64,000 nucleotides of DNA from Candidatus Heimdallarchaeota archaeon LC_2 (GTDB taxonomy: Archaea > Asgardarchaeota > Heimdallarchaeia > Heimdallarchaeales > Kariarchaeaceae). Within the stretch, counting starts at the first letter, position 1; every line of letters begins with the position of its first letter. The translations under genes and the position numbers were made by a program. Where the stretch lies: the NCBI GenBank assembly GCA_001940725.1, contig MDVR01000013.1, positions 1 to 64,000 of the forward strand, written 5' to 3'. Below are positions 6,363-42,779 of the stretch, piece after piece. The notes under the pieces are model-generated. The model was given only the letters and a program-made list of their open reading frames with translations. It made no database searches and was not told where the DNA came from.

Positions 6363-7067
6363 TTACGAGATTAACAAAGCAAAGATTGTACAAAACAGAG
6401 GTATTGTAATATTATCTAGTCCTTTAGATGATATAATCTCTACGACAGTTGTAATCATTGAAATTGATAGTATAAGTCCTAGTAAAAATAAATAGCTAAA
6501 ATCAAATAGATCAATCAACTTATAACTCGTTAATACAAGACCTAGTATGATAAAAGTTGACAAGTAAGCAAAAATACTACCTTCAATCGATTTATCATTA
6601 AAATATTTCCACGGATGCTTTCCGTATTTTGATCCAAAGTAAGCTGCTGCTGCATCGCCAATGACTAGAGGTAAAAATCCCACTTGTAAAATCCAGGGAG
6701 TGTCAAAATAAAACAAGAGAAGAGAAGTCAATGAAATTGCATAATAAGTTGTTCCGAAGCTATGTCCTTCACGAGTTGAATCAATTTGTAACCTCTTTAT
6801 GGGGGATGCCGGGGAAGTGATAAAATTAATTAAAATAAATATAATCGCAATAAATACTGGAACTAGTTTTTTGGAGAACATCAATGGCATTCCAATGACA
6901 ATCAATCCGACGGTCACATGAATAAATTTCCTTGTAGTAGGACCAGACATCCTTCCAGTTTTTTTAAAATTAGAAGCGATTTTTAGAAGTATGAAAATAT
7001 AAGCAAAAGAAAAGGGAAGTAAAATCAGGTCAATTAAAAATCGGTCCATTATTAGTTGATCTATCAA
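6363..7067 (-). CDS. Dolichol/phytol kinase-like integral membrane CTP-dependent kinase
   Basis: A 234-aa polytopic membrane protein. The motif RKFIHVTVGLIVIG near residue 46, GDAAAAYFGSKYGKHPW and FNDKSIEGSIFAYLSTF are the marks of the SEC59/VTE5-like kinase family (phosphatidate cytidylyltransferase superfamily), which phosphorylates polyprenols, phytol or diacylglycerol with CTP. In archaea the natural substrate is likely dolichol or an archaeal lipid, which is inference. About seven hydrophobic helices are visible. The translated start may be the second Met (MDRFLID). It is convergent with the reductase gene, 50 bp away. Confidence 0.82.
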   Translation of the reverse strand: MIDQLIMDRFLIDLILLPFSFAYIFILLKIASNFKKTGRMSGPTTRKFIHVTVGLIVIGMPLMFSKKLVPVFIAIIFILINFITSPASPIKRLQIDSTREGHSFGTTYYAISLTSLLLFYFDTPWILQVGFLPLVIGDAAAAYFGSKYGKHPWKYFNDKSIEGSIFAYLSTFIILGLVLTSYKLIDLFDFSYLFLLGLILSISMITTVVEIISSKGLDNITIPLFCTIFALLIS

Positions 7068-8813: not shown

Positions 8814-10250
8814 ATGACCCAAGAAGTAATCGTGAATAATAATAAATTAAAACTAGTTTTTCAGACCTTGAATACAAATTATGGTATGATTGGAATAATT
8901 ATAGCGATGGAATTTGCCATGGTTCTATTTCTTGGAAGTTTCTCAGAACCAATGGTCAAAATATTTGGTAAACCATTGTTACCAATTGATTTAGATAATT
9001 ATGAAATTTCAAGATCTGGTCGAATAATAATGTTATATCATGCTTTTGCAGTTCCATTTGTGGGGGCAGTTGCATTACTATTTTTAGAGATGTATGATAT
9101 ACGATACCCATTTAATTTACAAGCAAAATATTTAGTTTTTTCGGGCAGTTTGTTTTCAGGTATTGGTGGGATAGTTTTTGGTTATCTTATCCCTCATATG
9201 TTTATTCACACAGTTTTCCTTTTTGGATTAAGCTTGTCATTTTTTGGTGGTTTCATGTTAGTTTTAGGTTTATTCCCTTCAAAATCATATCAAACTCAAG
9301 ATCTGAGTGAGGAAAATACCATATTTGGTTATAATTTTGAATATATGAATTTATTTTTAACTATGTTATACTTCATTATATCCGCAGCAATAGGGGGTCT
9401 GGCCAGTTCTTTTTTAGGTGATGAACCTACCTTCCTTGCTGAGGATATTGTTAGAAACGAAACCCATTCACTACTCGAACGAATGGTTATATCTCATCTT
9501 CATGTCATGGTTGCATTACTTATTACGGGTATATTCTTGATGATGGTTACGTATTCAGAAATAAAAGGAATTGGATATAGAATAATTATGATCTTGGCAA
9601 TTCCTGGATCTCTCCTAATCAGTATTGGTGCTTGGTTAGTAATTGTCAAATTTGAACCAGCTCATAAGGTAATTAATGTCGGAGCTTTCATGTTGATTTT
9701 TGGAGGTTTTATACTATCATATCACGGCTTTAAGAAAATTCTAGCAGAAAGTAATGAAGATACTGTAGGAATAAAAAATAAATCCCGAGTTTTACTCAAA
9801 GATCCCGTGAAATTTACCTTGTACTTCGAATTGATTTGGGGTAATTTAGTAACTACAATCCCTGGAATTTATGTTGGGATTAATTTAGACACGTTTCGGG
9901 ATGTGAATGCAATAGGGGAACCATACCGACAGATTGAGCGTGATTTCAATGTTGCACACTGGCACATTCTCTCCGCATTAGCTGGCCTTACAGTATGTCT
10001 ACTCTTGTTAGAACATTATAAGATAAAAGGAAAATTTCGAGACTTAACGGGATGGTTCTTTCTTATTGGAAGTATCGTTGGTTTTGGGTTTGGTGCATTG
10101 TATATCACGCGAACCCCAGAAACCAGTTTAACAGATTTTTATTATATAATGATGAATATCGGAGTTATGACTGTATTTTTGGGTGTAGGTGCATTTTGCG
10201 TTGCTTATTTCAAACATTTTGCAGAAAAAATTAAAGATCATAATAGTTAA
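8814..10250 (+). CDS. Polytopic membrane protein with paired histidines (possible heme protein)
   Basis: A 478-aa protein with about twelve hydrophobic helices and no family I can name. Histidines fall in helices: H76 (MLYHAF), H128 and H132 (IPHMFIHT), H228/H230 (SHLHVMVALL) and H382/H384 (AHWHILSALA). The last two motifs are alike and sit about 154 residues apart, which suggests an internal duplication. Paired helix histidines often ligate heme or metal, as in heme-copper oxidase subunit I or cytochrome b proteins, but the classical oxidase motifs are not evident. An acidic loop (GDEPTFLAED) lies between helices. The gene is single, with an unusual inverted repeat at its start. Confidence 0.6.
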   Translation: MTQEVIVNNNKLKLVFQTLNTNYGMIGIIIAMEFAMVLFLGSFSEPMVKIFGKPLLPIDLDNYEISRSGRIIMLYHAFAVPFVGAVALLFLEMYDIRYPFNLQAKYLVFSGSLFSGIGGIVFGYLIPHMFIHTVFLFGLSLSFFGGFMLVLGLFPSKSYQTQDLSEENTIFGYNFEYMNLFLTMLYFIISAAIGGLASSFLGDEPTFLAEDIVRNETHSLLERMVISHLHVMVALLITGIFLMMVTYSEIKGIGYRIIMILAIPGSLLISIGAWLVIVKFEPAHKVINVGAFMLIFGGFILSYHGFKKILAESNEDTVGIKNKSRVLLKDPVKFTLYFELIWGNLVTTIPGIYVGINLDTFRDVNAIGEPYRQIERDFNVAHWHILSALAGLTVCLLLLEHYKIKGKFRDLTGWFFLIGSIVGFGFGALYITRTPETSLTDFYYIMMNIGVMTVFLGVGAFCVAYFKHFAEKIKDHNS

Positions 10251-10941: not shown

Positions 10942-12834
10942 ATGAGTTCTACTGAAGTTAATGCGATCACAAGAGAAAATCAGACCCCAAGAGATAACGA
11001 AGAGATTGTTAGAGTAGTTACAATACTTCGAGATTTTTGCAATCTAGAACAATTACCTCTTTGTTGTGGTTTACCATCAGATAATGATCTTAACGTAAAA
11101 TTGGATGATCTCCCAATTGAGTTCCAAGCTGAAGTAATGGAGATACTGGAATATGGATTTCAACCTTTTGCAATGAAGGATTGGATGACAATAGGTATTC
11201 TATCAGAAATAACTGGACTTGATCCCAATTCTCTGCGGGATGAGAAATTTAGGAAATCAAAGTTTGATTTTAGGGAACCGAGTTCGTGGGGCGATATCCT
11301 AAAATTTAGTGGAAAATATTACACAGTATGGAAAGAAGGAAAATTTGCTCGACTTCATGAAATCTTCTTTTCTAAATTCCTCAATAAAGTTCTCACAGAA
11401 GCTGAAAATTATCTTCATCATTCATTTACGCGTAACCACCCTAAAATCAGGGATTACACCAGGGAGGTAATTGATTTTCTAGACAATAAATATGATCCAG
11501 AGGAAAACCATGGTCGGATTGTAGTTGATACTTCTGCCATAACTGAGATTTATGCTACAACTCAAATTGCCAAGCTCCAAGCATTTTTGTTATATCTAAC
11601 TCATAATCAGACTTTCGAAGAAGCGAGAGAACTTGTGAAAAATTCTACAACTTTGATTACTAAAAAGGGGGCATTAGGTAAGAGTTTTGATTATTTAATC
11701 ACGATTGATCGTAATAAATTAGGGTGTCCAATCAATGAAAATGAACCAAGATTTCAAATTATCTATGGAGAGGTAAAAGGTGTTACCGAAATAGTTAGTA
11801 AAGCAAAAGGTTCACAAGGTACTTATCGTGAGATTATTGTAGGAAGCCAAAATCTAAATAGAATTATGACCGGGGAAGATTTTCTCATAAAAATATCTGA
11901 AATTAGATACCATTTAAAGGATCGTTATAGTCAATTGAGCTGGGATTTTAATTCAATAATTAATCTTTACAAACAAATTTCAAATGACTATGCCTCAATG
12001 GTTCCAGTTGCTCAAATAACAAAAGGGAGATCTCGTTTTAAAGCGATGTTTAACAATCGAAATTCTAGTAGATCCCCATTTCATTTGTTTCAAATGCGAC
12101 AAGGGAATATGCAGATTAAACGAGTTGAGTATATCGAATTAAATGAATTATATTCTGATCCATTAGATATACCAAGAGTAAAGATTGTTCCGGACTATTC
12201 TAAACATATTAGAAATCAATTTGCTGTATATTTTGAGGGAAAAAATTTCGATAAGCAGATAGTAGATCCTTATAGTGCAATAGATTCTGACAAAATAAAA
12301 AATATGATAAATCAAGGATTTGGAAAGTTTAGTCGTAGATTTCTTACGTACTTTGGAACAAGCCAAAACGGCAAGCACACCTCGAAGAAATGTGGCTTTT
12401 CTGGTAGACTAGAGGGTGTGAAAGATGATTATTTAACAGTAGTCTACACAGTAGAATCTATATTAAATTCTAAGAGCTCTGTCTCATATAGTTCATCTCA
12501 CCTCAAAGGGAATACTCACAATAATCAATGGGGAAAGCTTGGAGTTAATTCTATGGTCGCAGGAAAATATGCAGATCCTGAAATAGCAATTAAAAATGGA
12601 ATAATTCAATTTTATCAACAGTTATATGATAAGGACACTACTAAAGCTACTAATTTTCGACGATCGAGAAGAACAAATTGGAAAAAATCTATTGGGATTC
12701 TGATAAAGAAGGGATTACTCGAAGAAGCACAGAGATATCAAAATTTTGCTAATACTGTACTATCTGAATTTCATGCAAAGATTACCTCCCAAAATACTAA
12801 AATACAAAGATTCAGACCAATTAACGATAGATAA
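10942..12834 (+). CDS. Orphan 630-aa protein of unknown function next to tRNA-Pro
   Basis: I do not recognise a family. The ATG at 10942 follows a purine-rich GTAGGGAAAAT. Visible features: an N-terminal region with a conserved-looking pair of cysteines (LPLCCGLPSD), a central strand-like RIVVDTSAITEIY that could hold an acidic active-site residue, another strand IIYGEVKGVTEIV, a lysine/serine-rich segment SQNGKHTSKKCGFSGR, and a basic C-terminus (FRRSRRTNWKK). Basic patches suggest nucleic-acid binding. A divergent DDE-type transposase is one possibility, since the VVDTSA strand sits mid-protein, but no full triad can be defended. It lies 192 bp before the intact tRNA-Pro that begins the repeat array, so it borders the accessory region. 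Confidence 0.6.
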   Translation: MSSTEVNAITRENQTPRDNEEIVRVVTILRDFCNLEQLPLCCGLPSDNDLNVKLDDLPIEFQAEVMEILEYGFQPFAMKDWMTIGILSEITGLDPNSLRDEKFRKSKFDFREPSSWGDILKFSGKYYTVWKEGKFARLHEIFFSKFLNKVLTEAENYLHHSFTRNHPKIRDYTREVIDFLDNKYDPEENHGRIVVDTSAITEIYATTQIAKLQAFLLYLTHNQTFEEARELVKNSTTLITKKGALGKSFDYLITIDRNKLGCPINENEPRFQIIYGEVKGVTEIVSKAKGSQGTYREIIVGSQNLNRIMTGEDFLIKISEIRYHLKDRYSQLSWDFNSIINLYKQISNDYASMVPVAQITKGRSRFKAMFNNRNSSRSPFHLFQMRQGNMQIKRVEYIELNELYSDPLDIPRVKIVPDYSKHIRNQFAVYFEGKNFDKQIVDPYSAIDSDKIKNMINQGFGKFSRRFLTYFGTSQNGKHTSKKCGFSGRLEGVKDDYLTVVYTVESILNSKSSVSYSSSHLKGNTHNNQWGKLGVNSMVAGKYADPEIAIKNGIIQFYQQLYDKDTTKATNFRRSRRTNWKKSIGILIKKGLLEEAQRYQNFANTVLSEFHAKITSQNTKIQRFRPINDR

Positions 12835-13026: not shown

Positions 13027-13100
13027 GGACTCGTAGTGTAGTTTGGAAACATGCGTGCTTGGGGTGTACGTGATCGAGGGTTCAAATCCCCCCGAGTCCA
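13027..13100 (+). tRNA. tRNA-Pro (anticodon GGG)
   Basis: A complete cloverleaf can be drawn. The acceptor stem GGACTCG pairs fully with CGAGTCC (13093-13099), with discriminator A at 13100 and no encoded CCA. The D arm is GTGT with ACAT. The anticodon stem CGTGC/GTACG holds loop TTGGGGT, so the anticodon is GGG and the identity proline. The T loop is TTCAAAT. One irregularity: the T stem GAGGG/CCCCC has an A-C mismatch at its second pair. No intron is seen. Three further copies of its 3' half lie downstream. Confidence 0.9.
13051..13100 (+). repeat. tRNA-Pro 3'-half repeat, copy 1 (within the intact gene)
   Basis: The segment from the 5' side of the anticodon stem to the discriminator base recurs at 13202, 13988 and 15467 in the same orientation. 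That span is what archaeal tRNA-targeting (SSV-type) integrases commonly use as attachment core. Similarity continues past the gene into a T-rich tail (TTTTTCAGTTTT). Confidence 0.75.
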
Positions 13101-13201
13101 TTTTTCAGTTTTATAATGTATTATTTTGACCTATAATCTGTCGAATTAGTAATCTCAGGAATCCATTTCAAATGAAATCCCATGAACTTAGGCATGTGGA
13201 A

Positions 13202-13251
13202 ATGCGTGCTTGGGGTGTACGTAATCGGGGGTTCAAATCCCTCCGATCTCA
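13202..13251 (+). repeat. tRNA-Pro 3'-half repeat, copy 2 (no 5' half)
   Basis: Nearly identical to the tRNA from ATGCGTGCTTGGGGTGTACG through the T arm, ending CCGATCTCA instead of CCGAGTCCA. The sequence upstream cannot form the matching acceptor 5' strand or a D arm, so this is not a full tRNA. It keeps a GGG anticodon loop. It starts exactly 151 bp after copy 1. Interpretation as an attachment-site remnant is inference. Confidence 0.75.
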
Positions 13252-13268
13252 TTCTTTTTTCTTTTTTT

Positions 13269-13907
13269 CTAATTATTTTGAGACTGTTTTGTGTAATCAA
13301 CATCGAGTCCAAATTTATTTATTATTAGAGTATTTACTCGATGTTTTAAAGTTGGGTAGATATATGCAACACCAGTTTGACCTTTGTACTTCTCGATTCT
13401 AACAAGAAATTCTTCATAATCGGTATACCAATGTCTAATGAATGAACAAATTGCATTATCAGTTAATTCTCCATTGAAATCAATATAACGATAAGAATAA
13501 TATGTATTTGCTTCTTGCAATACCGACTCAGTTAATTCATCTAGATAAAGCTCTGGTGCCCATTCACTTATCTCCTGTCGTAATTTTTCTCGCCTTTTTT
13601 TATGAGCTTGTTTTTGAATTTTACTGAGCTTCTGCCTTCTTAACATCACTTTTTCAACCAAATCAGAATTCTTAGCGATCCAGTTTTCTAATCTTTCAAT
13701 TAGATAGAGCTTCATAGGTGCTACAGATTTATAATGGGGATTTGGTCTTATTAAATCAGGTTCACCAATCTCTTTAAACATTTTATCAGTCAAGAAATAT
13801 TGAGATTTAGCTCTTGAGAAAGTCATATACAAACTCTTTTTGGTCTTCTTTTCTCGTTCTTCGCCTTTATTTTCAATTACCTCATCTGGTTCTTTCACAA
13901 TTATCAT
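13269..13907 (-). CDS. XPA C-terminal-domain-like protein
   Basis: A 212-aa basic protein with no name in my memory but a striking motif set at residues about 33-70: SQYFLTDKMFKEI, then PNPHYKSVAPMKLYLIERLE, followed by a long basic helix with KKRREKLRQE. This is the layout of the DNA-binding C-terminal part of eukaryotic repair protein XPA (Y-L-L-x-D-x-D-L, N-P-H-H, M-K-L-Y-L, then a charged helix). The XPA zinc finger is absent. The C-terminal half (from ISEWAPELYLDEL) is unrelated to anything I know. It is the only gene between tRNA-Pro 3'-half copies 2 and 3, so it may be cargo of an integrated segment. DNA binding is inference. Confidence 0.6.
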   Translation of the reverse strand: MIIVKEPDEVIENKGEEREKKTKKSLYMTFSRAKSQYFLTDKMFKEIGEPDLIRPNPHYKSVAPMKLYLIERLENWIAKNSDLVEKVMLRRQKLSKIQKQAHKKRREKLRQEISEWAPELYLDELTESVLQEANTYYSYRYIDFNGELTDNAICSFIRHWYTDYEEFLVRIEKYKGQTGVAYIYPTLKHRVNTLIINKFGLDVDYTKQSQNN

Positions 13908-13987
13908 TCATAATATATGATAAAAATTATTTAAAGTAAAATCTGAAATGCTGCTTTAAGATTGATCGAAAAATGCTTTTATATTAA

Positions 13988-14034
13988 CGTGCTTGGGTTG
14001 TACGTGAAAGGGGGTTCAAATCCCCCCGAGTCCA
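13988..14034 (+). repeat. tRNA-Pro 3'-half repeat, copy 3 (no 5' half)
   Basis: CGTGCTTGGGTTGTACG (anticodon arm, GGG loop) continues through a perfect T arm GGGGG-TTCAAAT-CCCCC to CGAGTCCA. The upstream side shows no D arm or acceptor strand. The shared tail CATTTTTCA continues beyond the repeat. It closes the segment that carries the XPA-like gene. Confidence 0.75.
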
Positions 14035-14116
14035 TTTTTCATTTTTATTTTGAATTCTCAAATCCGTAGTTGATGAAATCAGACATTTCAGGTATGCAAT
14101 TTAAGTTTAAAAATCA

Positions 14117-15304
14117 TTAATTATATCTATCTGTATATTCTTTTAACTTTACAGCTTGATTTAATAAATCAATTGAGAGATTTGAAATTTGTGCCATGCT
14201 TGTGGTAACATGTTCCATGGTTGCTGCGACTTCTTCTGAAGATGCACTGGTTTCCTCGGAAAATGCTGCAACATTTTCAATATTTGTTTTGATTCCACCA
14301 AACTCATTCATTAACTCCATCAGATTTTCTGAAGTTATTTCTTCTATTTCTTTTGCAGCTAGTGAGGTCTCATCAGATAACTTTCTAACATTTTCAGCCA
14401 CTACTGAGAAACCTCTTCCATAATCACCTGCACGAGACGCTTCAATACCTGCATTTAAGGCTAAAATGTTTGTTTGTAACACAATCTGACTGATTGTTGC
14501 AGAATTTCCTTGAATTCTTTTTAGAACCTTTTCCAAAGTATCACTTGTAAAATTTAATTTATCTACCACAAGTGATATCATCGCCGACTGTGATGATGCC
14601 CCCTGAGCCATGGATTGTGACGTTTGTGCTACTTCTTCGGTAGAAGCATTGATCTCCTCGCTACTGCCAGATAATTCTTCTGAGGTAGAATTCATGATGT
14701 TACTGATAGTAATAATTTGTTGTAGATTTAGATCCACTGTGGATACTATTTCGTTTAGAAAACCTGCAATTTTCCCATAAGTATTATCAGCTAATACCAT
14801 TGGGCTTGTTATTCTGCTTTTGATATCTCCATGTAAGTATGCTTTAGTAACTCTGTCAAACTCTTCCACATAAGGATCACTTATATTATACAGCTCCCCA
14901 AAAACAACGATTATGTAAAGCAACATAATCGGAACAGTCCACAGTCTCAGTTCATTTTGAATACTGTTGGTATTAATGTTCATGGTTTCATAAGTTCCAG
15001 TCACTGTACCCATTCGTGATGAAAAAAGAAGGAGTCCCATACAAAGAGGGATTAGATGTGCAGTTAACTTTGTTCTGTAATCATTGGTTCCTAATTTGGA
15101 TCTTGTGTAAAATAGAACTAGAGCAATTGAACTTGGTAATACCATCAATTGAAACAACATATCTGATCTGGTTAGTGGATTTAATTCGTGAAAAATGTTA
15201 TTTGCCCAAAATTGAAATGAAATTGTATAGAAGAAAAGAATAATTTCAATTATAGTTAAATCAAACAACCTGTACGATTTTAAATTGCTTAGAGACACGA
15301 ACAT
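14117..15304 (-). CDS. Methyl-accepting chemotaxis-type signalling protein
   Basis: A 395-aa chemoreceptor-like protein. The N-terminal 150 residues hold about four membrane helices ([55 protein letters not shown]) with almost no external sensor domain. A HAMP-like linker follows, then the cytoplasmic hairpin with the MCP tip signature [20 protein letters not shown] - [16 protein letters not shown]. The Ser/Glu-rich segments on both sides ([34 protein letters not shown]) fit methylation regions. No cheA, cheW or other che gene is in the window. It is the only gene between tRNA-Pro 3'-half copies 3 and 4. Confidence 0.88.
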
Positions 15305-15331
15305 ATTATTATGGAGTAATCATTCTTAATG

Positions 15332-15343
15332 CTTTATATATGG
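15332..15343 (-). promoter_or_regulatory. Probable TATA box of the chemoreceptor gene
   Basis: On the minus strand the stretch CATATATAAAGC lies about 30-40 bp before the ATG at 15304, at the usual archaeal TATA position for a near-leaderless transcript. Confidence 0.5.
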
Positions 15344-15466
15344 TCGGTCAAACATTGTAATTGGAGACTACAAAGAATGCAATAAATTGTATACTTTTTT
15401 AATGATTATGATTTTCAAAATTGGAAAAACATAATTAGATTAATTTTTAATTCTAAGTTGAAAATA

Positions 15467-15517
15467 ATGCGTGCATGGGTTGTACGTAATCGGGGGTTCA
15501 AATCCCCCCCGAGTCCA
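15467..15517 (+). repeat. tRNA-Pro 3'-half repeat, copy 4 (no 5' half)
   Basis: ATGCGTGCATGGGTTGTACG, then a perfect GGGGG-TTCAAAT-CCCCC T arm and CCGAGTCCA, with one extra C compared with the intact gene. It is followed by the same TTTTTCAGTTTT tail. There is no 5' half. It closes the segment carrying the chemoreceptor. Confidence 0.75.
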
Positions 15518-16064: not shown

Positions 16065-16120
16065 ATTGATCTGTTGTTAACCTCAGTTTCAACAAAGTTT
16101 TCGTCCCTCAAATCACAAAC
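16065..16120 (+). repeat. Outer inverted repeat, left arm
   Basis: Starts ATTGATCTGTTGTTAACC and contains TTTCAACAAAGTTTT and CCCTCAAATCACAAAC. It pairs with 17482-17537 in reverse complement (about 49/56). Confidence 0.7.
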
Positions 16121-16189
16121 TAATTACAAAATGTGAATCACAACCCCTATTGTTTAAACGATTTGTGGAACCAAAGGACAATAAATTGA

Positions 16190-16247
16190 ACTTTGTTATT
16201 TGAGGTTCAAAAAGTATGCCAAAAGTGAGGGATGGCGCAGATCGATC
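16190..16247 (+). repeat. Inner inverted repeat, left arm
   Basis: Contains TTATTTGAGGTTCAAAAAGT, CCAAAAGTGAGGG and GCAGATCGATC. It pairs with 17355-17412 in reverse complement (about 49/58). It ends about 10 bp before the stop codon of the cargo gene. Confidence 0.65.
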
Positions 16248-16258
16248 CAGTAAGTGTC

Positions 16259-17224
16259 TCAAATTTGGATCTTTGTAGCACAAGGTGGATAAACCAAGAC
16301 AACTAGAGTGACGACGATATCAGCGACTAGTAATAAAATAAATCTAAGTCTATATTTACCAGCCTCTGGGATTAGATAACGGCCAAAGTGATCCCTCGAC
16401 CGATTGTAGGCATATAATCTAGATCCGTTTGATGTTAGAAGAGCGAACCACAGAATTGGAAAAGCGAGAAATGGGATTCCCCACTCAAGAACCAAAACAG
16501 TTCCAGTATATTCAAAATAACCCCCTCTAGAGTACCAAATATATCTAACCAAATTAGCATAGCTAAAAATGATTATTATTATGGAAATCCGCACCAAATT
16601 TAATTTTTTGTAGTTTAATCGTTCTGCAGAATTAGATTCTGATCCCCGATCTGGTGCAACCATATCGACTCCTTTAGAGGCTCTGTACATTCTATATGCC
16701 AAAGCTACAAGGACACTACTGCTCTTCCATAGCATGTAACCCAAAAAATTTGGTTGAAAATATGTACAATCGTATTGGTTAAGTGTTAGGTTGTCCATTG
16801 ATATTCGAGAATTCGAAACCCAAAATAATGACTCTGATGCATTTGGAAAGCGAAATTGAAAATTTATGAGATCCACTAAGAAATAAATGTAAAACAATAT
16901 GGTGATGGAAATATATACCCAAAATTCCATTTGAAAACCAAAATAAGTCGCTGATGGTGATGACTGATCGATCGACCGATGGGGGGGTGGTTGCCCAAAA
17001 TCAATTGATTGTGGAACAGAATCGTTATAATATTGAGATGAATTTTGTTGAAAAGATTCTTGGGATGGTTGTCTGGTTTCAGAAGGTGGTTGGTCGTCCT
17101 TGGTACCTATTTCAGTATCTGGTCTCACCACTCTTGATACACTAATTGGATTACCACATTTAGAACAAAACTTTGCATTCTTTTCGTTTCGATTTCCACA
17201 TGTTGTACAAAATTTCGAATCCAT
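16259..17224 (-). CDS. Zinc-ribbon membrane protein (cargo of the fold-back element)
   Basis: A 321-aa protein. The N-terminus is a zinc ribbon of the double CxxC kind (FCTTCGNRNEKNAKFCSKCG), followed by a disordered Gln/Ser/Pro-rich linker to about residue 95. The rest holds about five membrane helices (VYISITILFYIYFLVDL; SSVLVALAYRMYRA; ISIIIIIFSYANLV; LEWGIPFLAFPILWFALL; FILLLVADIVVTLVVLV). The layout resembles DUF4328-type or other zinc-ribbon-plus-membrane proteins of unknown role. The gene fills the space between the two inverted-repeat ends, with only about 10 bp between its stop and the left inner arm and about 130 bp on the right. I do not know its function. Confidence 0.65.
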   Translation of the reverse strand: MDSKFCTTCGNRNEKNAKFCSKCGNPISVSRVVRPDTEIGTKDDQPPSETRQPSQESFQQNSSQYYNDSVPQSIDFGQPPPHRSIDQSSPSATYFGFQMEFWVYISITILFYIYFLVDLINFQFRFPNASESLFWVSNSRISMDNLTLNQYDCTYFQPNFLGYMLWKSSSVLVALAYRMYRASKGVDMVAPDRGSESNSAERLNYKKLNLVRISIIIIIFSYANLVRYIWYSRGGYFEYTGTVLVLEWGIPFLAFPILWFALLTSNGSRLYAYNRSRDHFGRYLIPEAGKYRLRFILLLVADIVVTLVVLVYPPCATKIQI

Positions 17225-17354
17225 TGTAATTATAATCCACTAATTGCAAATCAACATTTAATATTTTATTTTTATTGTTTGGGTTCGGCATTCTGATCGT
17301 AATTTGGATTCACAAATGAAAACAATCGATCCAGTACTTACACGATGAATTTGC

Positions 17355-17412
17355 GATCGATCTGCTTTGACCCTCACTTTTGACAAACTTCTTGAACCTC
17401 AAATCACAAAGT
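17355..17412 (-). repeat. Inner inverted repeat, right arm
   Basis: Reverse complement partner of 16190-16247; contains GATCGATCTGC, CCCTCACTTTTG and GAACCTCAAATCACAAAGT. Confidence 0.65.
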
Positions 17413-17481
17413 AATGATTTTGAATTTATGAATGTATATCTTTCTTCAATAAATACATCTTAATTGCAATTTTTGGTTGAG

Positions 17482-17537
17482 TTTGTCATTTGAGGGTCAA
17501 AAACTTTGTTGAAACGCAGGTTCATAACAGATCAATT
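17482..17537 (-). repeat. Outer inverted repeat, right arm
   Basis: Reverse complement partner of 16065-16120; contains GTTTGTCATTTGAGGGTC, AACTTTGTTGAAACG and CAGATCAAT. Confidence 0.7.
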
Positions 17538-17642: not shown

Positions 17643-20600
17643 TTATTGATTTTTCTCATTCAGAAAGGCAACATCCAAAATTTCATACAATTCCTCATAG
17701 TTCTCTGAATTTTCTCCAAATTCCTCTTTGATTTCATCTAGCACTTCATCTGCCAAACTGCAAAATTCAACATGTAAATTATTGATCAAACTTTTATCTT
17801 GTGGATAAATTAGATCAAATTCACTATTAATCGATGATAAGAAGTCTTCATGACTAAGGTTTTCTAAAATTCGCTTAATTTCACCACCTATATCGCTCAA
17901 ATCGACTTCATTCATATTATAAGAAGTCAAGGGTTCTGTATCTTTAGTATCAGCAGTTCTTTCTACATGAAGAATTACTGAATACATAGATTCTTCTTTG
18001 ATCAGTTCGAAGCTCTTTGCTTCGACAAATGTAAATTCATCAGTTCCCATTTCATGAATACTATCATCACATGTAGCTCGATGGTCTTTACATATTTTCA
18101 TCCAATTTTGGTAATGTATACTTTCACTTATATCTAGATTTCCCATACTGTCATCTTCAACCCATTCAGCTTGAAGTTCTTTCAAATTGCTTTCAAAATT
18201 ATCATTTGCCACACAGCTATTGGCATCTCCAAGTATATTCTTAGTATCGTTATATCCGGTTATCATATTTTGATAATGTAATTCTAAATAATTCCCATTT
18301 GGAGAATTAATAATTTTTGTTACAATGTAATCGCTACCTAATCGATAACTTCCCGGAGGCCGTCTTTTCAGATATGTCTGATAATAATCATTCAATAATA
18401 TCCGAATTAACATATCTTCCTGGATTATTTCTTCATCTATAAGTTCAAGATTAATTAAATATTCAGTCATTACACCATTTTCATCCTCAATATATTGAAT
18501 AGCCGGTGAAAGTAGTTTCAATATTTCTCCACCACTAAATCTTCCCACATATTTTTGGTTAAATCTTCTCCTAGCATTTTCACTAAATCCTTCCAAATTT
18601 TCAACAACAGATATCTCAAAACAGTTTTGATGCTGAATTGTTTTATACAATTTCATATCATATTTTCTCTGACTACCTAATCTTTTCACTTTAGTTCTAA
18701 CATCATCCATACTTATTTCTTGAATAACACAATAATCTATATTGTGAGATATTTCTAAATATATAATTTCAAGATCATCTGGTGAAACAAACAATAAATT
18801 GCCATAGTCTTGAATAAATTCCAGCCCATTTCTTTTCGCAACATATTTTGTCAAGTCTACTTTCGATTGGACAAGGGCTTTAATCTTCAACCATCCCATC
18901 CATTGAGTATTTTCAATTGGGTCGAATCGATATGTTTCATCTCCAAATGTAACGGTCTTTTCATTATTTAGCTCACGTAAATATTGTATCATTTTATGAC
19001 TATCAGAAAAATATACTCCATCTATTGCTGAAATCTTAGTAAATTGGTATTTTGAAGCTATTACATCATCCTTCAAATAAAAGTCTAAATCAATATATCC
19101 AATTTTTCTATCTCTTTCCAGGCTAAAATTCAAGTACAAATCTTGACCGATTATGAATTCAACCTTACCCAAGACTTCCTCCACATCTATCTCATACGGC
19201 TCATCTTCGGGTTTTGGTGGATAATTAATTGCTTCTGTTATTTCAAATGAAAGAATTGAATTCAAAGTTGATGTGGTATGTAATTCTAATTTACCTACAA
19301 GTATCCAATTATCATTTATATGGACCCAAATATAATCATCTCTCATATATCGATTAACAGATATCCTATTAGGCATCAAATTTGTGGAAACCTCAATTAT
19401 CTCAGAAACTAAATCTTCATCATTGACGGTATAAAACAAACCTTGATTGACAAGATCTAAAAGACCATATTTTCCACTATAAAATAATATAGGAGGATAA
19501 TTCTCAATATACAACCAAGTGTAACCCCTATTTGTTTGTAACATAAAACCGTCTCTTCGTTTGTATAGAATTTGGTCAAGATTTCTATTACTTAGATAAT
19601 TAGCTCGTTTATTTAGATAATACCAAGTTGACTTTGAATTAAATTGTGTCTTCAAAAGATTGTCATATTTTGGTTGGAAGCCGATCATGTCTAGAGTAAA
19701 AGGGAGGAGATCATCCCACATTTTCTCCAGTTGGAAGTCTGTGAGCTCTGGATATATATGGAATAATGTCAATAACAGTAGAAAATTAGAATTCCCAATT
19801 TCCAAGAAAAAATCTACATTCCCTTTTATATTGCTAGGGCTTGTTTTGGAATATACTATGTGTCTGTAATATGCTCGTATTCTTCTATCCTGAATGATAT
19901 ATGATAATTTATCAGTAAAAGTTAACTCCCATTCTATAATTAATTTCTTCAATTCTTGGAGAGATTTATTAGTTTCAATTGATTTCTTAATTATTTTAAA
20001 TAAGCTCTTTAAATCCTCAAATTCTTCTGACTTAAATTTATTTAATACTGTATTTTTTAACATAGCAATTGTATCAAGCAACCTCTTTCTCTCTCTACGT
20101 TCGATGTCATCAATTCTGTATCCTGGAGTTAATAAATTTCTGTGGATTGGAAATGCTTGCGTTATTTTCGGTAATATGGAATAATCAATTGGGGGATTAA
20201 TACGAATTTTTGTATTGATTTGTGATTTATCAACATATCTCTTGGATCGGGATATCCAATCTCTTTCAACAAATTTTAGATTCAGTAATTTAAGTTGTAT
20301 ACTGGAATATTTGGAATATTGAGCTTCATATATTTCGATAGCATCCGAGTTCGTTTCAATTTCTTCTTTTAACCCTTGACCATCGATATCTTCACTATTA
20401 TTGTCTCTCAACCAAGGTACTAGATCATATGCTTTTGAGATTTCTATTTCCTGTAATTCCTTGTTTGAATGGATTTTTGAAAATCTTGATAATTTACTTC
20501 TCAGTTTTCGATTTGCAAATTTATTTGTATGTCCTCTTAAAGCAATTGTTGGTTTCAAGTAATGCTTAATCTGATAATTCTTTTTCCGATTGTTCTTGTT

Positions 20601-22931
20601 CCACTCAATTATCACACGGTAGTCTGGATATTGTGGATTCTTATCAGATGGTTTTTTCGGAGCAATTGGAAGGTTAAAAATGATTTTACTTCTAAGACTA
20701 GGTAAATGTTTATCTACAGATATTGATCTTTGATGATATAATTTAGATGTGTACTCTCCACGATTGGCTTCATCAACCCAATAAATAGTTGAGGACCCAT
20801 GAATTTTCCTTACAATCTCGTTTTCAACTAATTTCAAATCTTGATGTGATATTATTGATTTATATGACTCCCAGCCTGCAAAAATGTAAACATCGAATCC
20901 TTCTGGTAACTCATCTGTTAATCTATCAAGTGAGGTTGTTAAGTCCCAATTAATAATTTCAATTTTATGTAATGATTTTTCCAGTGATTTCGATTTATCA
21001 GTTCTCAATCGATTCTTAGTAAATTTAGATAGAGTTCCAATTAAATCAACTAATGCAATTTTTTCATTTTTGTGTTTTTTGACCACATGGGGAATGAGAT
21101 GAGAATAGGTTGCAATCCATGCAGTCGAGTATCCTGCAGGAGTATTGGATTTGGCAAATAGATACAAAATATTGTTTCTAAATGCCGTTGTCCCAATTTG
21201 TGGTTTCTGAATTGAAGCAGAGCTTGATTTGGTATTATTGTAGTTCATACCGAGATCTAGTGTTGTTGGTGATTTATCCAAGACTAACGATATTTTTTTG
21301 TCTGAATTTGTGTTATGAAAGACGAGTTGATCTGATTCGAAATCATTATCCGAATCATTAAGATTAGAAAATGTAGATATAATCAGATTCAACATATCGG
21401 CTTGATATTTATTCCATTCATTTTTATTGGTAGATGGTGCGATTCTGATAATTCCTATGATCAAAGAGAGATCCGTATCACTAATCTTGTGAAAAGCTTG
21501 TTTTACTAAAATTTCTAATTCATTTAATTGAGTTTTTTCTCTTGGTCGTAAACGAGTATTTCCAAAGTATTGCCAATTCTCATAAGAAAGTTCAACAGTC
21601 TTTAAGCAAACATTGGGTTGAATAATATCCCAATTATTCTTTTTCCTTTTACCCCGAATGAAACAATTATAGTCAAACTGTGTTTTAACATCCAGTATTG
21701 CAATCGGTTGCCACCCTCGATCATATATCCTGGCAAATACCATCAGATCGGGGCGTCGGGTAGAAATATAATCTGTAAGTGTAATTTCTGCAACAATTAA
21801 TATTGGAAGTCCAAAAATATTGTAGTTCTCTCCCTGTTCAATCACTTTTTCAAGTGAAAATGGTTGTGGTAACCCATATAATAATATTTTATGGAATTTA
21901 TCCCCATTTAGTCTTGCAAGAGTATTTTTATTCTTCAGGAATTTATCTATTGATGAGATGGTAAAATAATTGTTTACGGTCTCTTTACTATTCTCAGATA
22001 TTTTGTCATGTATAATTAAATCTTCAGGAGATATATTTTGGGACTTATTGCGATTCTTAAGTTGTTCCATTTTGTTTGGTGTGATATATCTTCCAATCTG
22101 GAAATTTTCATTAATTATCATCCTTTTGAAATCTCGAAGAACACTATCAATATACTTGGGGAATCGAAAATTTTTCTTGATATATTTAGGTGAATCGCTG
22201 TGAGAATTCACACCTGCTCTTCCACCTGCATAGATCCAATCAGCCAAGTCTCTGCAAGCATGGAAAAATGAAACGAAATATTTGTTTACACGATTAACTG
22301 TTACATTTCGAATGAAAAGTGTGAATGCAAGCTCTTGCATGTGTGTTCTGAATATTTCGGCAAGATCCAAAGAAGGTAGATATGGATGATCAGGTCTTAC
22401 ATTCTCTTTTGATATAGTTCGATATTCATATTCCTCCGCAGTGGGTAAAGGATATCTTGTAACGAAAAAATCTCTTAATATTGCACCTCCAGCATTTAAT
22501 ATGCGATTGAAATCATCCATTTCTCCTTCCTTTTCATTGTGAACCCGTTTGTTTATTGGATAACCGTAGCGATTCAACCTGATCCAAAATAACCTTAAGT
22601 ATTGCTTTCTGACAATCACTTCAGCCATTTTAATTGGACTAATATCTGGTTCACCCAAAACGATTGATTCCCAGTAAGCTTCTAGGGCCTTTTTACACTG
22701 TGTTTCAATTATTTTCACAATATGCTTATTCCATCGATTCTTCTGTTTCTTTGCTAATCGATAAATTATACTTATGGAAGTATTTGCTGCAGATTTAATG
22801 ATTATATATGGTTCAGCTCTTTCAAGAGATTGATCAAAAGATTGATCAAGTTTATCTTTTGCTGATACCGGTGGTTTGAGGTCGTGAGTGTGAGAATTTT
22901 CTAAATCAGTTTTAACACCCACATCAGCCAC
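17643..22931 (-). CDS. Giant protein with PD-(D/E)XK nuclease signature and degenerate NTPase-like region
   Basis: A 1762-aa protein that I cannot place in a family. Seen: at about residues 380-420 an upstream Glu (VAEITLTD, E382), RPDLMVFARIYDRG (D395) and AILDVKTQFD (D414, K416), spaced as in PD-(D/E)XK restriction-type nucleases. At 588-605, LYLFAKSNTPAGYSTAWIA resembles a P-loop strand-loop-helix but lacks the Lys of a Walker A. At 716-722, IYWVDEA resembles a Walker B. The stretch 690-730 and the arginines nearby would fit a defective or unusual NTPase core. Residues 800-1100 are basic and helical; about 1150-1600 are beta-rich with repeated hydrophobic strands; the last 100 residues are strongly acidic. 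The start is an ATG with no obvious strong SD. It sits alone between the fold-back element and a TnpB. A role in defence or in mobile-element biology is inference from domain type, size and setting. Confidence 0.7.
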   Translation of the reverse strand: MADVGVKTDLENSHTHDLKPPVSAKDKLDQSFDQSLERAEPYIIIKSAANTSISIIYRLAKKQKNRWNKHIVKIIETQCKKALEAYWESIVLGEPDISPIKMAEVIVRKQYLRLFWIRLNRYGYPINKRVHNEKEGEMDDFNRILNAGGAILRDFFVTRYPLPTAEEYEYRTISKENVRPDHPYLPSLDLAEIFRTHMQELAFTLFIRNVTVNRVNKYFVSFFHACRDLADWIYAGGRAGVNSHSDSPKYIKKNFRFPKYIDSVLRDFKRMIINENFQIGRYITPNKMEQLKNRNKSQNISPEDLIIHDKISENSKETVNNYFTISSIDKFLKNKNTLARLNGDKFHKILLYGLPQPFSLEKVIEQGENYNIFGLPILIVAEITLTDYISTRRPDLMVFARIYDRGWQPIAILDVKTQFDYNCFIRGKRKKNNWDIIQPNVCLKTVELSYENWQYFGNTRLRPREKTQLNELEILVKQAFHKISDTDLSLIIGIIRIAPSTNKNEWNKYQADMLNLIISTFSNLNDSDNDFESDQLVFHNTNSDKKISLVLDKSPTTLDLGMNYNNTKSSSASIQKPQIGTTAFRNNILYLFAKSNTPAGYSTAWIATYSHLIPHVVKKHKNEKIALVDLIGTLSKFTKNRLRTDKSKSLEKSLHKIEIINWDLTTSLDRLTDELPEGFDVYIFAGWESYKSIISHQDLKLVENEIVRKIHGSSTIYWVDEANRGEYTSKLYHQRSISVDKHLPSLRSKIIFNLPIAPKKPSDKNPQYPDYRVIIEWNKNNRKKNYQIKHYLKPTIALRGHTNKFANRKLRSKLSRFSKIHSNKELQEIEISKAYDLVPWLRDNNSEDIDGQGLKEEIETNSDAIEIYEAQYSKYSSIQLKLLNLKFVERDWISRSKRYVDKSQINTKIRINPPIDYSILPKITQAFPIHRNLLTPGYRIDDIERRERKRLLDTIAMLKNTVLNKFKSEEFEDLKSLFKIIKKSIETNKSLQELKKLIIEWELTFTDKLSYIIQDRRIRAYYRHIVYSKTSPSNIKGNVDFFLEIGNSNFLLLLTLFHIYPELTDFQLEKMWDDLLPFTLDMIGFQPKYDNLLKTQFNSKSTWYYLNKRANYLSNRNLDQILYKRRDGFMLQTNRGYTWLYIENYPPILFYSGKYGLLDLVNQGLFYTVNDEDLVSEIIEVSTNLMPNRISVNRYMRDDYIWVHINDNWILVGKLELHTTSTLNSILSFEITEAINYPPKPEDEPYEIDVEEVLGKVEFIIGQDLYLNFSLERDRKIGYIDLDFYLKDDVIASKYQFTKISAIDGVYFSDSHKMIQYLRELNNEKTVTFGDETYRFDPIENTQWMGWLKIKALVQSKVDLTKYVAKRNGLEFIQDYGNLLFVSPDDLEIIYLEISHNIDYCVIQEISMDDVRTKVKRLGSQRKYDMKLYKTIQHQNCFEISVVENLEGFSENARRRFNQKYVGRFSGGEILKLLSPAIQYIEDENGVMTEYLINLELIDEEIIQEDMLIRILLNDYYQTYLKRRPPGSYRLGSDYIVTKIINSPNGNYLELHYQNMITGYNDTKNILGDANSCVANDNFESNLKELQAEWVEDDSMGNLDISESIHYQNWMKICKDHRATCDDSIHEMGTDEFTFVEAKSFELIKEESMYSVILHVERTADTKDTEPLTSYNMNEVDLSDIGGEIKRILENLSHEDFLSSINSEFDLIYPQDKSLINNLHVEFCSLADEVLDEIKEEFGENSENYEELYEILDVAFLNEKNQ

Positions 22932-23070
22932 CTCAACACCAATTTAACTTGTACAATTTATATTCATTGGGTTTTATGAATAACATTTTGAACTATGTCT
23001 CTATTAATTTGATAATTATTTGATTAAAATATAAATATTTAATAAAATTAGAAGATTATAGTTTTTTTTA

Positions 23071-23093
23071 ATCATAGTTTAATTATATTATAG
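23071..23093 (+). repeat. 23-bp direct repeat, copy 1, upstream of tnpB
   Basis: ATCATAGTTTAATTATATTA plus TAG is repeated exactly at 23184-23206, 113 bp on. The second copy ends at the ribosome-binding site of tnpB. It may be a duplicated promoter element or a trace of element insertion. Confidence 0.65.
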
Positions 23094-23151
23094 AGATTTA
23101 TTCCCAATTAACTCTACATTACTTTAAATAGGATACTCATAAAATAAATAA

Positions 23152-23174
23152 TGTTGCGAAAAGAACTTGCAACA
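23152..23174 (+). repeat. Hairpin in the putative left end of the TnpB element
   Basis: TGTTGC (23152-23157) and GCAACA (23169-23174) are perfect inverted copies with an 11-nt loop. IS200/IS605-type elements carry subterminal hairpins that TnpA binds; this could be one, but no tnpA is present here. Confidence 0.35.
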
Positions 23175-23183
23175 ATGATTTCG

Positions 23184-23206
23184 ATCATAGTTTAATTATA
23201 TTATAG
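23184..23206 (+). repeat. 23-bp direct repeat, copy 2, upstream of tnpB
   Basis: Exact second copy of the repeat at 23071-23093. Its end overlaps the ribosome-binding site of tnpB. Confidence 0.65.
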
Positions 23207-23218
23207 GAGTAAAATCTC

Positions 23219-25333
23219 ATGGCAAGAAAAGGTGTTATCACTTCAACTACAGTCCCTATCAGCTATTCTGAGATTGGGGAATTTGAATTGAGGAGAATAA
23301 CACAAATAGTCAAGAGAGATACTCATGTAATTAATAAATATCTAGGCATAATTCAATATAATCAAAAATATCTATTGGAATTTAAGAAAGGTCAATATTC
23401 TGGGAAATTGGATGAATTAACGCTTTCAACACGTCATGGTAGAAAACCTAAGCATGATTTGAAAGTTAAATTTCCACGAATTTCTCATAATGAATTATTG
23501 GAATGTAGGGATGGTGCACTTGGTCTATTCAAGAGTCATCTTGAATTATCCAAAGACGAGGGTAATGTTAATACTGGTTTTCCAAGAATTAGGAATCTAA
23601 CAGGAAGACAGATTAATTCAAGAAGATGGAAATTTGATTCAAAGAACCGTACTATAACAATCATAGATAGTATGGAGAGCAATCCAAAAATGATAAAGAA
23701 TGGAAAAAATGTAACCCGTCACGAATGGATAACAATCCCACTCAAATTAAGTCAATATCATTTAGAGCAGATGAATCTTGGTAAACTCAGAACAATTCAA
23801 ATTGTAGTGACTGATAATCTTGAAAGGGAGAATCAATTCTCGATTAAATTTTCAATCCTTCATGATGTAGTTCAATTATCAAAGAAGATGAAAAATGACC
23901 TCAAAACAAAACCTGTTGGAGTTATTGGTGTAGATCTTGGTATTAATATAGATATAACTACTGCTTTGATAACAGGTAAAGGAGTTATTGATTACAAGAC
24001 ATTCAAAGTTGATGAGGAAATAAAAAATTCTATTCGAAAAACAGAAAATACTTTGAAATATCTCCAAAGATCTTCTCAAATTAGACAATTCAGTAATTTT
24101 GTTGATACCTATGTTGATCGTAGAAACAAGTTAATTCAATTCCTTTTATCAAATTCATTTAATCTACATTTAGATAAAATGTCATCACATCAATTGTATG
24201 TAATAAATGACAAATTAATTCAAATTAGAAATGCATTCAAATATGATAATTTAGAGTCATTTGATCTCAAATCAAAAGCTGAGATAATTCATAATAATAG
24301 AATTCCACTATTTGCTTATTTGGAAGATAAACTTAAAGTTATCAAATCAATATTTGATACAAATTATGATAATATGTCAAAGGATGAAAAATCCGAGTTA
24401 AAGAAAATCCGTAAATCAATTTACAAAATAATAGATTCTCTAGAAACCATGGGTCTTTTACTCAATCCTCAAAAATTGTACAATACTGATGGTATCTTTC
24501 AGAAATTAAGAAAGTTAAAAAGTAAAAGAAAGAGATTATCAATTGATGCTGATAGAAAATTAGCACTTCAATTCACTGAGTATATAGAAGAAATATCCAA
24601 AGATTACGATATTTATATTTCAATTGGAAAACTCAAGGGAATTAGAAATCGTGCTCGAAGAGGTAATGGAAATAAATATCTAAGAAGATTGGTTAACCGC
24701 TGGACATTTTTCAGAATTACTAATATGATTGAATTAAAAATGGCTAAACTTGGATTGAAAAAACGAGTATTAGTTATTTCAGAAGCCTGGACATCAAAAA
24801 CCTGCTGGAAATGTAACACCAGAGGTAATAGAATACGTCAGAATTTATTTCACTGTATTAATAAAAAATGTGAGTGGAGAGGCAATGCTGATGTAAACGG
24901 AGCAATTAATATTGCTAAAAGATTAATTGCATCATTCAAACTTACATCCTTTAGAAATAGAGGAGTAAGAGGACTAGGTATGTATCTACCTGTCATTTCT
25001 TCTAAAAAGAGGAAGTACGGAAAAGCTAGAAGCGTACCGAAAAGCCATAATGGCAGTCCTACCCCGTTATTAAATAATATTAATAATAATAAAAATAACG
25101 GGAACGCTGGTACTCAGAGTACTCATTCATCACTGGATGAGTTCTTTGAAAATGATCAATCAGCGGTTAAAAATCACGGAAAAACTGACTTTGTAGAAAC
25201 TAGTAAGAAGAGAAGCAGAATGAAGCACCGTTCCAATGGAACAAAACCTATTTCAACAGAAGCTATTTTGGCTAAAACTAAGAAAGTGAAAGTGATGGTG
25301 ACATCAGATATAGGGTTGCTGAACGTGAAGTAA
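23219..25333 (+). CDS. tnpB: TnpB-family RNA-guided nuclease with rearranged (Fanzor-like) catalytic site
   Basis: 704 aa, long for TnpB (usually about 400). RuvC-I is VIGVDLGIN with D239. At the usual RuvC-II position the sequence is IYISIGKLKGIR, with Gly470 in place of the catalytic Glu. A Glu occurs 52 residues later (VISEAWTSKTC, E522), the alternative position known in Fanzors and their TnpB relatives. The zinc finger is C529, C532, C546 and C551, and RuvC-III is GNADVNGAINIAKR (D558). The RuvC-I to RuvC-II spacing is enlarged by a helical insert (about 265-455). After RuvC-III there is an unusual tail of some 135 residues, partly N-rich, encoded by DNA that can fold strongly. No TnpA is adjacent. 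The likely role is RNA-guided DNA cleavage that helps element retention; activity is inferred. Confidence 0.88.
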   Translation: MARKGVITSTTVPISYSEIGEFELRRITQIVKRDTHVINKYLGIIQYNQKYLLEFKKGQYSGKLDELTLSTRHGRKPKHDLKVKFPRISHNELLECRDGALGLFKSHLELSKDEGNVNTGFPRIRNLTGRQINSRRWKFDSKNRTITIIDSMESNPKMIKNGKNVTRHEWITIPLKLSQYHLEQMNLGKLRTIQIVVTDNLERENQFSIKFSILHDVVQLSKKMKNDLKTKPVGVIGVDLGINIDITTALITGKGVIDYKTFKVDEEIKNSIRKTENTLKYLQRSSQIRQFSNFVDTYVDRRNKLIQFLLSNSFNLHLDKMSSHQLYVINDKLIQIRNAFKYDNLESFDLKSKAEIIHNNRIPLFAYLEDKLKVIKSIFDTNYDNMSKDEKSELKKIRKSIYKIIDSLETMGLLLNPQKLYNTDGIFQKLRKLKSKRKRLSIDADRKLALQFTEYIEEISKDYDIYISIGKLKGIRNRARRGNGNKYLRRLVNRWTFFRITNMIELKMAKLGLKKRVLVISEAWTSKTCWKCNTRGNRIRQNLFHCINKKCEWRGNADVNGAINIAKRLIASFKLTSFRNRGVRGLGMYLPVISSKKRKYGKARSVPKSHNGSPTPLLNNINNNKNNGNAGTQSTHSSLDEFFENDQSAVKNHGKTDFVETSKKRSRMKHRSNGTKPISTEAILAKTKKVKVMVTSDIGLLNVK
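25031..25141 (+). ncRNA. Candidate omega-RNA (reRNA) scaffold overlapping the 3' end of tnpB
   Basis: A stretch inside the tnpB tail has dense base-pairing. CCCGTTATT (25063-25071) pairs with AATAACGGG (25094-25102). AGCG (25031-25034) can pair with CGCT (25105-25108) and TACC (25035-25038) with GGTA (25109-25112), a pseudoknot-like order. GCC-ATAAT-GGC and CTCAT...ATGAG hairpins lie nearby. TnpB guide RNAs are known to come from the 3' end of the gene. The protein tail read from this region is low complexity, which fits selection on RNA rather than protein. Boundaries are estimates. Confidence 0.4.
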
Positions 25334-36627: not shown

Positions 36628-36791
36628 TATTATCAATTAAGAAAAAACTTAAAATTGTTAGTTATCACAATTGCTTCGAAATTAAAATAGACATTCAAAT
36701 CCCCCATTTGAAACTTTGAAAAATTACAAAATTTATGAAGATAAAAATTGATCATCTAGCGCGAGATATCTTAAGGCTTTAATTATAGTAA

Positions 36792-41416: not shown

Positions 41417-41671
41417 TATTGTGTTGTACCTCCTGCTACTGAACTTTTCAGTTTGATAAATCAAAGCCTGTCAGTCAACGCAGGGTAAAAGAAGACATCA
41501 TTCGATGCTTCTAATCATTGTTTTTCATCATACAATATAAAAATAAAGATAGTTCGCGATAGAAATTGAATTTAATAATTCAGAAATTCCATAATAAGAT
41601 TGGAAATTTTACGATATATATTGACCTTGGTGTTGAGTTTTAAAATTGTTTTAAAAATGAAATAATTAACA

Positions 41672-42151
41672 GTGGAAAATCTGCCTAATTTCAATTATTT
41701 AACTGAAGTACCGGATTCTAAAACAGTTTTGAATATTCTAACTAAGCCAGTTCGAGATTGGATTCAAATACATCTCGGTAAGTTAAATCAAGTACAATTA
41801 GTCGCCATCCCACAAATAATTAAAAAGGTCTCAACATTAGTGATGTCACCTACTGGATCGGGTAAGACACTTTCTGCATTTCTCGGTATAATATCTGAAT
41901 TGCTTATTATGGAAAATAAAAACGAACTTACAGATAATATTTATTGTTTATACATATCACCATTAAGAGCCCTTGGGAATGATATTCATAAGAATTTAGA
42001 AATTCCATTAAATAATATAAAAGAGAAAACTGGTACAAAAATACGAATTGCTAAAAGAACAGGCGATACTCCCACAAGCGAAAGAATTAAACTTTTACGC
42101 AAACCACCACATATACTCATTACAACCCCTGAATCTTTTGCATTAATGTAA
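41672..42151 (+). pseudogene. Truncated Lhr helicase N-terminus, tandem copy 1
   Basis: 159 codons identical to the start of the intact helicase, including the Q-like motif and Walker A (SPTGSGKTLSAF), ending at SFALM and a TAA created by the repeat junction. It lacks DEIH and all later motifs. If the duplication is real, a short ATP-binding peptide could still be made; catalytic activity is not possible. Confidence 0.85.
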
Positions 42152-42225
42152 GATTGGAAATTTTACGATATATATTGACCTTGGTGTTGAGTTTTAAAAT
42201 TGTTTTAAAAATGAAATAATTAACA

Positions 42226-42705: not shown

Positions 42706-42779
42706 GATTGGAAATTTTACGATATATATTGACCTTGGTGTTGAGTTTTAAAATTGTTTTAAAAATGAAATAATTAACA

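Follow-up and report, generated by a model that had tools for sequence, protein, structure and literature searches.

Archaeal tyrosine recombinases show a preference for the 3′ ends of tRNA genes and can integrate in tandem at one locus, and integrated archaeal elements that have lost their integrase are also known, according to the sections available of one source (PMC8371274). In the same sections, strand exchange by IntSSV1 is placed at the anticodon loop, and the att site of SSV2 overlaps both the anticodon and the T stem-loops.

Here we describe an array at a tRNA-Pro(GGG) gene within a 64-kb stretch of DNA (referred to, at its full length, as the window), which belongs to the chromosome of an Asgard archaeon of Heimdallarchaeia type and encodes ribosomal proteins, a Ras-like GTPase, and two chemoreceptors. 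The tandem tRNA-integrated arrays of SSV/pNOB8-type recombinases, as described in the available parts of PMC8371274 and PMC6563490, share with it an intact tRNA, displaced direct 3′ parts, a core running from the anticodon stem-loop to the 3′ end, reuse of one site, and reported elements without integrase; however, the elements here measure 0.1 to 1.5 kb, hold at most one host-type gene, and contain no recognised integrase or replication gene. The Heimdallarchaeum elements HeimV1, HeimV2, HeimM2, and the aloposons belong to the same broad host group and also integrate at tRNA genes, and HeimV2 and HeimM2 were reported at one site, which is a further likeness to the array; those with a size given in the accessible text are large (44 kb for HeimV2), and aloposons carry genes for proteins of 3,000 to 6,000 aa (PMC8813620). 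Archaeal integrons and CALINs, which are enriched in Asgard genomes, are likewise built of single-gene modules in one orientation with related sites between them, often without an integrase, whereas the sites here are plain tRNA-Pro 3′ parts beside an intact gene rather than attC, and no IntI was found (PMC9668308, in its available sections). In the tRNA-Thr disruption of Caldiarchaeum, too, one tRNA locus has a recombinase-coding segment along with a tRNA fragment and differences in introns, but that case involves a 5′ fragment and intron gain, in contrast to the 3′ parts and absent intron here (PMC3293823, in part).

RESULTS

Three partial copies follow an intact tRNA-Pro(GGG)

The array consists of the tRNA gene, three 3′-part copies (c2 to c4, located by sequence comparison and a 30-base core search), and the segments between them:

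13027-13100, + strand: intact tRNA-Pro(GGG) without intron (ARAGORN; Rfam RF00005, 53.8 bits)
13101-13202, no strand: first segment (102 bp), from the tRNA to c2, without a recognised gene
13202/13203-13251, + strand: c2, 3′-part copy to the discriminator, acceptor strand degraded
13269-13907, − strand: XPA_C-domain protein of 212 aa in the second segment (Pfam PF05181, 28.1 bits, cut-off 25)
13988-14034, + strand: c3, 3′-part copy starting at nt 27, with 7 nt of shared tail after it
14117-15304, − strand: methyl-accepting chemoreceptor of 395 aa in the third segment (Pfam PF00015, E 1.1e-25)
15467/15468-15517, + strand: c4, 3′-part copy with one extra C in the T-arm, followed by a 12-nt tail

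The tRNA gene is the sole one found in the window by ARAGORN and Rfam, and its T-stem, with pairing read from the sequence, is GAGGG/CCCCC with an A50·C64 mismatch. All three copies lie downstream of it in direct orientation, and all of them start at the anticodon-stem base, no more than three bases apart (nt 24 to 27, counted from the ARAGORN anticodon position); by BLAST, c2 and c4 match from nt 24/25 and c3 from nt 27. These limits agree with the original prediction that the copies correspond to the known archaeal attachment core, from the anticodon stem-loop to the 3′ end (PMC8371274, available sections). Exact matches between copies reach at most 30 bases. Allowing up to three mismatches, the 30-base core matched exactly four times in 64 kb, each time with 0 mismatches, and 0 times in 100 dinucleotide shuffles of the window, which, together with ARAGORN and Rfam, bears out the predicted succession of an intact tRNA-Pro(GGG) and three direct 3′-half copies. 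The copies had been taken for exact 3′ halves, which they are not: in addition to the extra base of c4 and the degraded acceptor strand of c2, each is 89.6 to 91.5% identical to the intact gene from nt 27 to the discriminator. The T-rich tail said to be shared is indeed common to the intact gene and c4 (12 nt, identical) and c3 (7 nt), but that of c2 is T-rich with no more in common. As anticipated, no 5′ half accompanies the copies; BLAST found no 5′ half, further copy, or other-strand copy in the 64-kb window, where the remaining matches were of 10 to 20 bases with E values of at least 0.08.

Read from the sequences, the anticodon stem is identical in all copies, and T-stem pairing is kept in c3. 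Sites 50/64 are A/C in the intact gene, G/T in c2, G/C in c3 and c4, and A/T in two relatives (G003 and G007); these base identities hint that a crossover may have taken place at the T loop, with nt 50 on one side of the exchange and nt 64 on the other, and one repeated mutation would account for them equally well. The 60-nt flanks of the gene and copies show no clear likeness beyond the tail (pairwise p values of 0.03 to 0.74, uncorrected), and the two lowest values, for the downstream flanks of the gene versus c4 and of the gene versus c3, both include the shared tail. The motif TTATTTTGA is found 3′ of the tRNA, c2, and c3 at differing distances, and occurs five times on the + strand and four times on the − strand of the window. 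At 36694-36705, 67 nt past the S19 gene, 12 bases match the T-arm, which is within chance (E 0.33); in G003, tRNA-Pro is located shortly after S19.

Repeats of other kinds were observed elsewhere in the window. An Lhr-type helicase gene opens with a repeated 554-bp unit (41600-43260), with ORFs at 41672-42151, 42226-42705, and then 42780-48104; two 600-base comparisons at that offset gave 100% and 87.8% identity, the second possibly lying partly outside the repeat, and the unit is either a recent duplication or an assembly fault. At 16065-17537, imperfect inverted arms of about 183 bp (82 to 84% in their best parts) surround a single gene (16259-17224, − strand) whose zinc-ribbon product is probably a membrane protein; the unit may be a terminal-inverted-repeat element with one gene. 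It is followed at 17643-25333 by a 1762-aa ORF without Pfam match that adjoins a 704-aa TnpB/Cas12f-like protein.

Two segments each carry one intact host-type gene

The segment contents proposed earlier (no gene, an XPA-like gene, and a chemoreceptor gene) were recovered by Pfam. Both genes are intact and open, lie on the same strand, and are directed towards the tRNA, with gene-to-copy gaps of 17, 78, 82, and 163 bp. The sequences between copies are unrelated to one another, and G+C content is 0.32 in the window and in the array. No recognised phage or plasmid gene was found in the segments, and IMG/VR scans with the XPA alignment and with the chemoreceptor gave no match; the cargo has the look of host rather than phage genes.

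A profile of the eight-member XPA-like family matched XPA chains in the PDB (E 1.9e-4). The AlphaFold model of the window protein has a mean pLDDT of 79.7, and its nine best Foldseek matches are XPA/Rad14 DNA-binding domains with probabilities of 0.94 to 1.00, although the same matches are weak by E value (at least 0.016) and TM-score (0.25 to 0.47). The family is small, with seven other members found among 5.8 billion proteins, and its distribution is patchy: the gene is present in 1 of the 58 genomes of the class, at a different place, on a 3.4-kb contig between RecA-like and HMG-CoA-synthase-like genes (names read from translations), and no tRNA half was seen on that contig. Chemoreceptor relatives occur in 21 of the 58 genomes at E values of 1e-10 or below, the top-scoring one being 37% identical.

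Search for an integrase

The absence of an integrase from the window, noted in the original prediction, was supported with Pfam: 49 of the 56 ORFs of at least 110 aa were scanned and none matched the tyrosine recombinase family PF00589, so that an IntI integrase was not detected among them either. In the reading frames tried across the copies, neither an integrase gene nor a fragment of one was seen. All nine relatives tested have PF00589 proteins, a count that may include chromosomal XerA; archaea carry XerA resolvases (PMC8371274, available sections), and some of the recombinases in these relatives may be such housekeeping enzymes. In one relative (G001, locus L048, 1237-3002), roughly 0.8 kb separates a tyrosine-recombinase ORF from the 3′ end of a tRNA-Arg(TCT), and the tRNA is flanked on its other side by an ORF read as TFB-like. 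This is likely a tRNA-integrated element in that relative, on a contig that ends before any far end of the element.

The tRNA-Pro locus in relatives

The L10 protein encoded in the window has closest matches of up to 89% identity, among them P0002 and P0003 at 87 to 89%, and the nearest named one, from a Kariarchaeaceae record, is at 77%; identities in the nearest genomes compared are 65% (G001), 64% (G007), 62% (G002), 58% (G003), and 57% (G032). An L10 alignment search of the relatives' contigs gave nine loci, and a search of the same contigs with the window neighbour at 8814-10250 gave none. In G032, G003, and G007, tRNA-Pro(GGG) adjoins ribosomal-protein genes and/or a homologue of the window gene at 6363-7067, and in G001 it is on the L10 contig, about 14 kb away; it was not found in G002. 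In the window, the distances from the tRNA to these landmarks are 6 kb upstream and about 27 kb downstream. Judged from these gene orders, one ancestral tRNA-Pro(GGG) locus with loose synteny is suggested. The 630-aa ORF just upstream of the tRNA (10942-12834) has no homologue but itself among 5.8 billion proteins and none in the 58 class genomes.

Comparison of related loci had been proposed as a check on the array. It yielded four relatives (G001, G003, G007, and G032) that possess tRNA-Pro(GGG) with no tRNA half in the 3.5 to 9 kb downstream; at 57 to 65% L10 identity, these genomes are too distant for the exact empty-site junctions that had been sought.

Rarity of the array

We surveyed stretches around the tRNA genes listed for five relatives (G001, G007, G033, G035, and G046), with some near contig ends skipped, and five stretches of G001, G003, and G007. 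ARAGORN made 150 tRNA calls in 126 sequences including the window, corresponding to 147 distinct genes, 146 of them from relatives. At a threshold of 29 of 40 matching bases, no free 3′ half was found near these 146 genes, among those listed; free 3′-end copies were seen for the window tRNA-Pro alone (three copies), and the other six matches lay inside intact tRNA genes. At least 2.5 kb of downstream sequence was available for 124 of the 150 calls and at least 8 kb for 94, a range in which distant halves of larger elements would be missed. A search of 227 Asgard genomes for the core, allowing up to three mismatches, gave one match, with three mismatches, which is an intact tRNA-Pro(GGG), and three exact patterns of the core matched no IMG/VR contig; intron-bearing tRNA-Pro genes escape such core-pattern searches. 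A literature search found no report of archaeal arrays of partial tRNA genes. None of the relatives examined showed the array, in keeping with the initial view of it as unusual.

An intron interrupts most related tRNA-Pro(GGG) genes

The tRNA-Pro(GGG) gene could be read in 33 relatives, of which 25 have an intron in the anticodon loop, including all four of the nearest readable ones (G001, G003, G007, and G032); the window gene and all three halves have none. The distribution is as follows:

Anticodon-loop intron: G001, G003, G005-G010, G013, G014, G020, G027, G028, G031-G035
Anticodon-loop intron, rest of the 25: G048, G050, G051, G053, G055-G057
Second insert, in the T loop, besides the anticodon-loop intron: G034, G050, G053, G056, G057
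Insert elsewhere: G039 (T loop), G047 (variable arm), G016 (5′ part)
No insert: G004, G011, G015, G045, G046

By locus, the T-loop insert was observed in tRNA-Pro(GGG) of six Heimdallarchaeia genomes (L213, L215, L217, L219, L220, and L221), five of which also have the anticodon-loop intron. The intron difference at this tRNA-Pro gene is new here. Introns have been proposed to protect tRNA genes from integration, an idea attributed to Randau and Soll (PMC3293823, available part). The missing intron in the window gene and its halves, compared with its presence in most relatives, suits this idea, because without the intron the anticodon loop and the 3′ part form one uninterrupted core. It is equally possible that the order was the reverse and that integration swapped an intron-bearing 3′ part for an intronless one. 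Moreover, no half was found in the roughly 9 to 19 kb read downstream of tRNA-Pro(GGG) in the five intronless relatives; their lack of an array argues against a simple intron-loss rule, and one case is no proof.

DISCUSSION

We consider it probable that the array represents stacked attachment-site scars from successive integrations at tRNA-Pro(GGG), and this integration part of the original prediction is retained. Successive integration is favoured because the shared 5′ limit at the anticodon-stem base in three diverged copies fits such a core. Two copies also continue past the tRNA end into the same tail, and direct downstream copies are the arrangement expected of displaced attR sites. Also on its side are the PF00589 proteins of all nine relatives tested, the four nearer relatives whose tRNA-Pro(GGG) has no half next to it, and the lack of free halves near the 146 listed tRNA genes and, by the core search, in 227 Asgard genomes. 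Elements with an attP copying the 3′ part of tRNA-Pro(GGG) would have integrated one after another via a tyrosine integrase, and each integration would have restored the tRNA and pushed the previous 3′ part downstream, which would make c4 the oldest end of the array and c2 its most recent. We infer that deletions within the elements later removed the integrase, unless it worked in trans, and that the rest of each element disappeared, which would leave at most one host-type gene per element, each with its own upstream gap. Several features speak against such scars: the segments, at 0.1 to 1.5 kb, are far below the integrating elements described in the literature compared, the first of them spans 102 bp, two hold precisely one whole host-type gene apiece with little sequence on either side, an outcome that random deletion would not have to produce, and neither the 49 ORFs scanned in the window nor the frames tried across the copies yielded an integrase gene or a fragment of one.

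Recombination or copy errors, such as template switching or ectopic duplication of tRNA fragments, would dispense with a site-specific enzyme, and would fit the imperfect copies, the decayed acceptor strand of c2, and the failure to find an enzyme. Undirected duplication, however, would not predict a shared 5′ limit at the anticodon-stem base, and here three such limits fall within three bases, with all copies direct and all downstream; the flank homology expected of tandem duplication is not clear either. We regard this origin as unlikely.

A tRNA-keyed cassette array would consist of one-gene circles bearing the tRNA-Pro 3′ half, captured and released in an integron-like manner by an integrase encoded elsewhere. 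The two compact modules with one intact gene each on the same strand, the unrelated inter-copy sequences, the invariant anticodon stem, and the T-stem pairing kept in c3 are all in its favour. Such a cassette-collecting system, the other half of the original proposal, is hardly likely, since nothing like it stands beside the 146 distinct tRNA genes of relatives, among those listed, the core search gave no free half in 227 Asgard genomes, and the core is absent from IMG/VR by the three exact patterns; there are just two gene-bearing modules, and no mobile form is known. By the spacing of the copies, such circles would measure about 151, 783, and 1,482 bp. Slightly more doubtful is a variant in which loss of the intron made tRNA-Pro(GGG) an open docking site, where an integrase acting in trans would stack half-tagged one-gene circles with the XPA-like and chemoreceptor genes as cargo, so that the tRNA gene would serve as an integron-like platform for capturing genes.

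It is very improbable that short repeats caused unrelated metagenome pieces to be joined in assembly. The longest exact inter-copy match of 30 bases would allow it, and faulty assembly could explain the exact 554-bp repeat in another part of the window, but the copies differ from one another in a way that a repeat-driven misjoin would not make, the composition is even, and both intervening genes are open. Archaea do have split and disrupted tRNAs (PMC3293823, available part), yet split or permuted tRNA parts or functional tRNA-half RNA genes are barely credible here, since the intact gene is present, the window has no separate 5′ half, and Rfam gave no tRNA match at the three halves, where its matches were to tmRNA and sub-threshold.

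Integration scars at this gene would also bear on the proposal that introns guard tRNA genes, for which the locus provides a natural case: an intronless lineage with four copies of the core, compared with an intron in most relatives. In some relatives, introns occupy both the T loop and the anticodon loop, two of the tRNA regions said to be used by integrases. If the scars are true integration products, an Asgard chromosome has been gaining single chromosomal-type genes at one tRNA, and one of the genes gained is related to the eukaryotic repair protein XPA.
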